Below, piece by piece: positions 6,261-9,779 of a DNA stretch of 43,814 bases; within the stretch, counting starts at the first letter, position 1; every line of letters starts with the position of its first letter. The stretch covers positions 1-43,814 of the forward strand of contig JACADV010000028.1 of NCBI GenBank assembly GCA_013388425.1, in the 5' to 3' direction. The notes under the pieces are model-generated. The model saw nothing but the letters and a program-made list of their open reading frames with translations, had not been told where the DNA came from and searched no databases. Origin of the DNA: Thermoanaerobaculaceae bacterium (GTDB lineage: Bacteria; Acidobacteriota; Thermoanaerobaculia; Thermoanaerobaculales; Thermoanaerobaculaceae). The position numbers and the translations under genes were made by a program.

Positions 6261-6818
6261 CTACTCCCGCGTGACCTCCCAGAGGTGGCGCACCGCCGGG
6301 TGGTCCCAGGGGATGCGGTACTCGTCGGGGTGCGCCGCGTCGAAGCAGCGCGTCACCAGGTAGAAGAGCCCACAGGGGACGGTGAGGGGGCGGTAGCCGT
6401 GGGCCACCCCCGCGGGGATCCGAACCCAGGCGTCGCGCCCTTCGCCGAGGATCACGACCTGCGTCCCGCCGGCGGTGGGGGAGGCGCGGCGCAGGTCCAG
6501 GAGGACCACCTTCATCTTGAAGGGCGGCGGGCAGAACCACAGGTCGTCCTGCCCGAGGTGCACGTGCAGCCCCTTCACGTGGTCGCTGGCCGTGACCAGG
6601 GAGTAGTTGAGCTGGGCCAGGGCAACACCGGCCGAGAACTGCGCCAGCTTCTCGGAGCCGGGGTGCGTCTGGGCGGTGCGGAAGAGTTCGAGGAAGAGCC
6701 CGCGATCGTCCACGTGGCGGGTGAGGGGGAAAACTTCCACGCCGTGGATGGGCGGGGAGGCGCTGTACTCCTTCTGTTTCCCAGGCTCCAGCAGGTCCTC
6801 GCGCCGCAGCTCGCCCAT
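6261..6818 (-). CDS. dTDP-4-dehydrorhamnose 3,5-epimerase family (RmlC-like) protein
   Basis: This 185-residue cupin-type protein resembles RmlC: DDRGLFLELFR near the start, LNYSLVTASDHVKGLHVHLGQ with the catalytic-type histidine, MKVVLLDLR, and IPAGVAHGYRPL. The family converts dTDP-4-keto-6-deoxyglucose to the 4-keto-rhamnose isomer for surface polysaccharide, but close relatives act on other nucleotide sugars and no rmlA, rmlB or rmlD is in the window. GGAGGAGACC precedes the ATG. It lies downstream of the Kdo operon and the folded RNA region, on the same strand. The shared theme would be cell-surface sugars. The exact substrate is uncertain. Confidence 0.75.
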   Translation of the reverse strand: MGELRREDLLEPGKQKEYSASPPIHGVEVFPLTRHVDDRGLFLELFRTAQTHPGSEKLAQFSAGVALAQLNYSLVTASDHVKGLHVHLGQDDLWFCPPPFKMKVVLLDLRRASPTAGGTQVVILGEGRDAWVRIPAGVAHGYRPLTVPCGLFYLVTRCFDAAHPDEYRIPWDHPAVRHLWEVTRE

Positions 6819-6851
6819 GGTCTCCTCCGGCAGCGCAAGGCTAGCACATGA

Positions 6852-7145
6852 CGTTGCCCCTCGCGGCTGCCGCGCTCGGACCTTGCGGCTCCCCAGCCGC
6901 TGCGGCCCGAGAGGCCGTCGCGCGCGACCCCGTAGCTGGTCTCGTCGCGGGGCCCCTCGCCGTTCCCGGCGTGCCGCCGGGCCGGCGACACCCCGTTCCA
7001 TTCCCGGCGCGAGGTGCCCGCGCCCTCGGCGTGATGGCGGCGTAGCGCGAGGGGCGCTCTTCCCCTGGCGGCAGGCCTGCTGCTCGTTGGCGACGCGTTC
7101 CTCGTGGCGGGGGTTGTTCGCTGGGTAGCCGTTGCCCTTCGCGGC
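6852..7145 (-). ncRNA. Highly structured RNA candidate (HEARO / omega-RNA-like)
   Basis: The 341 bases between kdsA and the RmlC-like gene hold no convincing gene but many strong hairpins: 6885-6900 (6 bp, 4-base loop), 6903-6917 (5 bp), 6958-6987 (7 bp inside 5 bp, 3-base loop), 7006-7024 (6 bp) and 7050-7066 (5 bp). Near-identical 16-base direct repeats (15/16) bound it at 6852-6867 and 7130-7145. Read on minus, the 5' part runs GGCAACGGCUACCC, then GAACAACCCC, then CGCC. To my recollection this resembles the start of HEARO RNAs, the guide RNAs of IscB/IsrB elements, which are about this long. That family match is from memory, not a search. It does not match tmRNA, RNase P RNA or SRP RNA hallmarks. 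No iscB gene is nearby, so it would be a stand-alone copy. Confidence 0.45.
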
Positions 7146-7159
7146 CGAAAACAGAGCGC

Positions 7160-9779
<2,620 letters not shown>

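Follow-up and report, generated by a model that had tools for sequence, protein, structure and literature searches.

What occupies the 341 bp that separate kdsA from an rfbC-like gene in a 43,814-nucleotide contig of a Thermoanaerobaculaceae bacterium (the whole of this stretch is called the window here)? An earlier note, made from the sequence alone, had described the largest gene-free gap of the window, packed with hairpins and bounded by direct repeats, and had proposed an inserted sequence carrying an unannotated minus-strand RNA, possibly a stand-alone HEARO/omega-RNA. At 6854-7057, the minus strand has a conserved structure with covarying pairs, which is visible by comparison only (Table 1). 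The best reading of the sequences is that it belongs to a previously undescribed, non-autonomous, dispersed structured-RNA element of Acidobacteriota related to Thermoanaerobaculaceae.

The gap between kdsA and rfbC

Since the gap scored as non-coding in all six frames by codon usage and had no Pfam match inside it, we rejected a protein encoded there; single-base indels among the copies of the element (alignment A6) also argue against a common reading frame. The element lies 102 nt downstream of the kdsA stop codon and 36 nt upstream of the rfbC-like start codon, and kdsA itself was matched in 96 of 100 relatives. The simple gene caller left some longer gaps in the window, several of which we judged from their sequence to contain genes that had been missed.

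When the gap was folded as a single sequence, its energy was ordinary for its composition (z of -1.22 on the minus strand and -0.93 on the plus strand, relative to shuffles) and unexceptional compared with other stretches of the same contig. The hairpins were no stronger than in shuffled sequence, and the same comparison led us to reject a long inverted repeat. The direct repeats are indeed present, with 15 of 16 bases identical, but they do not go beyond chance: a repeat at least this good appeared in 17 of 1,000 shuffles of the gap, the window carries four further pairs of the 15/16 type at comparable spacing, and the 16-mer is no genomic repeat, occurring about as often as its reversed-pattern control. 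We therefore rejected the repeats as a target duplication or a genomic repeat. The element includes the left copy only, within the 3' strand of its closing helix, while the right copy falls among bases 7058-7145, outside the conserved structure. Since neither the fold energy nor the repeat is remarkable, the single sequence alone would have led to the dismissal of the finding.

Comparison with relatives gave a different picture. A DNA search with the gap against 147 genomes of the class returned many copies of approximately 6854-7056 at 69-76% identity (best E 4.6e-20), and these homologues belong to members of the same family. That the gap is an ordinary GC-rich spacer, with hairpins arising from base composition alone, would fit a fold energy no better than that of shuffles and the lack of a second copy in this genome. 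On the other hand, the homologues in relatives, a 127-bit match to a covarying family and the 13 double-changed pairs kept in the window copy (see below) leave this explanation with next to no credibility.

The site itself can be compared across syntenic relatives. From the kdsA stop codon to the promoter-like TGCTAGCC box there are 313 nt in the window and 109-171 nt in these relatives, whose gap up to the box is thus about 150-200 nt shorter, and the element was absent between kdsA and rfbC in every relative examined. Since the distance is longer here and the element is missing there, the window copy appears to have been inserted directly upstream of the rfbC promoter region. This agrees with the proposal of an inserted sequence without a protein of its own, for which the earlier note had asked for just such relatives. 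The TGTGCTAGCCT box before rfbC, which we infer from sequence to be a promoter, is kept in five relatives (L010, L012, L013, L015 and L016) and has one change in a sixth (L021).

In the five loci that keep the box, a palindrome of another kind occupies the gap, made of purine-rich runs such as AGTTGAGAGTTGAGAG and their pyrimidine complement; similar runs recur around rfbC in L012 and, in the GGGGTCAGGGG form, in L010. In G013 (L011:600-1440), kdsA is followed by an apparent transposase with an integrase core in place of rfbC.

Table 1. Features of the kdsA-rfbC region, in window coordinates
Feature	Positions	Strand	Basis
rfbC-like gene (dTDP-4-dehydrorhamnose 3,5-epimerase family)	6261..6818	-	PF00908, E 2.7e-17
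Promoter-like TGTGCTAGCCT box upstream of rfbC, outside the element, marking its downstream border	6841..6852	-	
Direct repeat, 16 bp, 15/16 identical	6852-6867 CGTTGCCCCTCGCGGC; 7130-7145 CGTTGCCCTTCGCGGC		
Solo element copy of 204 nt with its 5' end at 7057 (minus is the model strand)	6854..7057	-	R1, 127 bits
Closing helix P1, 3' strand, also left direct-repeat copy	6856..6865	-	R1 mapping
Side hairpin, model helices 9-11	6875..6911	-	R1 mapping
Long interrupted rod-like arm, model helices 3-8	6913..7031	-	R1 mapping
Closing helix P1, 5' strand (GCCCCTCGCG region)	7046..7055	-	R1 structure mapped on window
kdsA (DAHP synthetase I family)	7160..7999	-	PF00793, E 8e-69

Conserved structure and its strand

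Eighteen copies, aligned on the strand that corresponds to the minus strand of the window (A6), yielded a covariance model, R1, with 202 positions and 58 pairs. Its consensus is a unit of about 200 nt in which a closing helix of 10 bp, a long interrupted rod and a side hairpin meet in a three-way junction, and the match of the window copy spans the full model (1-202). In a set of 73 copies, 44 of the 58 pairs covary, including 23 of 34 pairs in the rod-like arm; 96.0% of pair cells can pair, compared with 76.3% after shuffling, and the covariation score is 0.435, compared with 0.126 (sd 0.005) for shuffles and at most 0.065 with the partners slid, although all these values lean upward because the 73-copy alignment was fitted to the model (A8). 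Covariation was found in 7 of the 10 pairs of P1 and, among copies, in all 11 pairs of the side hairpin. In MAFFT alignments made without structure, 26 of 61 and 25 of 55 of the predicted pairs likewise showed double changes. Double changes far outnumber single, one-sided ones, and this excess indicates that an exchange of whole helices between copies, or correction at the DNA level, contributes to the covariation.

In the window copy, 53 of the 58 pairs form and five are broken. Thirteen pairs differ from the family consensus on both sides and still pair, two of them as pair types found in no other copy of the set. The copy also lacks a terminator-like flanking hairpin and the G-rich leader that directly precedes the RNA in other copies. 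Given the five broken pairs and the missing terminator-like flank, it may be a relic.

Which strand, and which molecule, is under selection? We set aside a choice of strand by alignment energy alone, as alignments of the A4/A5 type differ in detail, and instead counted G-U and A-C cells at paired positions. On the model strand, G-U cells outnumber A-C cells by 131 to 52 in the fitted alignment and by 136 to 62 in a structure-free alignment, in either orientation; 33 pairs favour G-U and 8 favour A-C. In unpaired columns, C>T changes are no commoner than G>A, so mutation bias does not explain the excess. These sequence counts are most simply read as RNA-level selection on the minus strand, and together with the covariation they back the earlier proposal of a structured RNA that had escaped annotation and apparently lies on this strand.

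Alternatively, the element could work as DNA, as a repeat of the REPIN/MITE kind that a transposase recognises in its folded single-stranded form, and the covariation would then arise from this recognition or from quasi-palindrome correction in replication. The predominance of double over single changes and the exchange of whole helices would fit such a mechanism. However, a DNA mechanism predicts no difference between strands, and the roughly 2.3-2.5-fold excess of G-U over A-C on one strand, which persists in unfitted alignments and has no matching mutation bias, counts against it. We consider this explanation possible and rather doubtful, and return to it below with the arrangement of the copies.

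The proposal that the RNA is a stand-alone HEARO/omega-RNA, or its remnant, drew on properties that the element does have: a structured RNA of comparable length on the minus strand, in a dispersed family. The HEARO covariance scan that the earlier note had called for gave nothing at gathering score in the whole window. With permissive filters, neither the gap nor the 601 bases around it matched RF02033 at E<=10, and searches of this genome and of 149 genomes of the class also gave none. Since the same model scores above its cut-off in 5 of 297 Acidobacteriota genomes, and thus works elsewhere in the phylum, these negatives are meaningful. Genuine HEARO RNAs do occur in other Acidobacteriota (G196 and G228, at loci L143 and L146), with seven matches in G196 alone, and R1 does not match these loci. 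The guide had been placed around 7146-7165, immediately 5' of the RNA as then proposed; where a variable guide would be expected, other copies carry the conserved G-rich leader, so the proposed guide finds no support. RRXRR, the N-terminal family of IscB/IsrB, was not found in this genome, an 83% complete assembly, and control genomes also gave no match. On the strength of the RF02033 negatives, the failure of R1 on true HEARO loci and the conserved leader, we rejected the HEARO identity, to which we assign almost no probability.

Dispersal and head-to-head pairs

A search with R1 in eight genomes gave at least 50, 43, 53, 26, 21 and 20 copies, followed by 5 (G007) and 1 (the genome of the window); these are lower bounds, with 145 candidates scored per genome, and the genomes are drafts, apparently metagenome-assembled. 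The genome of the window comprises 2.1 Mb at 83% completeness, and weak matches on its contigs C57 and C107 were rejected as further copies since they fall within ordinary genes. R1 found no copy in nine other genomes of the family, which include congeners of the high-copy species, and none elsewhere in the class. Phages, plasmids and viral contigs gave no match to the element, and we found no description of it in open-licence papers. When the element at 18 loci was compared with Rfam 15, the sole match at E<=2 was a sub-threshold microRNA match outside the unit. A short near-perfect palindrome at L160:1115-1187 has the outer ends of the element (CACTGCGTGAGGC...GCCTCACGCAGTG) without its structured body, and this palindrome matches a microRNA model by chance.

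With genes predicted by a simple caller that relies on codon usage and was trained on the window, all 58 sampled clusters are intergenic, and the gene ends that adjoin them comprise 66 that are 3' and 28 that are 5'. All counts here are over sequences, so copies are not independent events. In G001, the 5' border is abrupt against unrelated flanks. In the family, the 3' end of the element is followed by an A-rich stretch and then by a small hairpin. Terminator-like hairpins in antisense orientation were found in 33 of 66 3' flanks, compared with a mean of 5.6 in shuffles, and none was found in sense orientation.

Nineteen clusters are close pairs, and all 19 are head-to-head, with their 5' ends facing. 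In a tree of full-length copies, whose clades span several species, 12 of 18 pairs join a member of clade A with a member of clade B, and most of the remaining pairs join clade A or B to a third group. On average, the two members of a pair are 63% identical, which is also the identity between higher- and lower-scoring members generally. The different clades and the low identity show that a pair is two different RNAs back to back and no simple palindrome, and that the arms are not homogenised with each other.

Several copies sit at apparently orthologous sites in different species. At one such site (L209/L210, in G010 and G013), one arm is 91% identical between the species, and the other is 62% identical and belongs to a different clade in each, as if replaced. 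In a number of G001 copies (L198-L200, L213, L214 and L221-L225), the 3' tail enters another repeat, GAGATCCTTC(ACTCGCTTC)GCTCGTTCAGGATGACA. Several G001 contigs (L225-L231) have their starts within the element, which suggests an assembly broken by near-identical copies and recent activity of the element in G001.

The units could instead be domesticated structures at gene 3' ends that insulate transcription or stabilise mRNA and have little present mobility. The bias towards gene 3' ends, the antisense terminator-like hairpins and the copies at orthologous sites across species are consistent with such a role. However, the element is absent from members of the same genus, its conserved three-way junction is much bigger than termination or stabilisation requires, and the terminator-like hairpin is missing at the window copy, so that we regard domestication as unlikely.

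To identify what moves the element, we compared its distribution with that of candidate partners. Y1 transposases, at the level of the PF01797 family, occur in genomes with and without the element and do not track it, and no element lay within 1.5 kb of Y1 transposase genes at the four loci examined. The distribution of reverse transcriptases does not track the element either, and none of the neighbouring proteins at the sampled loci recurs between loci. Paired elements have inverted ends, and no transposon was found inside widely spaced copies; an autonomous version there was rejected, as the interiors examined hold unrelated ordinary genes. These observations bear on the DNA-level explanation from both sides. 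A dispersed, intergenic and patchy element with inverted pairs resembles REPINs (PMC3116915), but the arms are not homogenised with each other and the Y1 transposases do not track the element.

A proposed mobile structured RNA and its relation to known systems

Taken together, the sequence comparisons lead us to favour, with some reservation, the reading that 6854-7057 is an old solo member of a new dispersed family of non-coding structured RNAs, transcribed from the minus strand, whose paired form is or was mobilised in trans. In this scheme, the unit would be transcribed from the minus (model) strand, the head-to-head pair would be the present or past mobile unit, and an enzyme supplied in trans would copy the pair by reading either the RNA in its folded form or the corresponding DNA; solo copies like that of the window would have lost their partner and flanks. 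The window RNA is sense to both kdsA and rfbC and, if it acts at all, would most likely either give the kdsA transcript a folded 3' end or serve as a spacer in a kdsA-rfbC transcript. It is conceivable, as a more speculative extension that we think improbable, that a pair consists of divergently transcribed, cooperating RNAs, which would make it a mobile ribonucleoprotein system and a new class of RNA-dependent mobile element, one that lacks its own protein and relies for its spread on an enzyme provided in trans by the host or from a foreign source.

The family adds a large, strongly covarying structured RNA that is missing from Rfam; its copies number in the tens per genome, and its diverged forms are arranged in back-to-back pairs. 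If transcribed, it would be unusually elaborate for an RNA so widely dispersed without its own protein, and it raises the testable question of what copies the element and whether the cell uses it. Energy-based folding missed this real structure in a GC-rich genome, and comparison with relatives found it.

Several known systems share some of these features. HEARO/omega-RNA (RF02033; PMC9755519) is likewise structured, measures about 200 nt and belongs to a dispersed element, but covariance models gave no similarity in either direction, and the 5' flank of our element is conserved rather than variable. The bcr repeats of the Bacillus cereus group are interspersed and intergenic, about half of their copies are transcribed, and they include the MITE-like bcr1 as well as bcr10 and bcr18 with conserved RNA structures (PMC3446304). 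Our element shares the interspersed, intergenic placement and the conserved secondary structure; going by the descriptions, it is set apart by its other host group, head-to-head pairs, three-way junction and flanking antisense terminator-like hairpins. Bacterial MITEs, among them Correia/NEMIS and ERIC (reviewed in PMC10969869), are similarly short, non-autonomous, foldable and dispersed between genes with a patchy distribution, whereas here no related transposon was found, and the covarying internal structure is larger. RAYT Y1 transposases move REPINs, which consist of repetitive extragenic palindromes in inverted doublets (PMC3116915); the palindromes are simple and 20-40 bp long (PMC3733652). 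Like REPINs, the element is intergenic, reaches tens of copies or more, occurs as inverted pairs and singlets and has no protein of its own, with the inverted arrangement found in all 19 pairs of the family and the window copy itself being solo. Unlike REPINs, its unit is branched and about 200 nt long, the members of a pair mostly come from different clades, and Y1 transposases do not track it.
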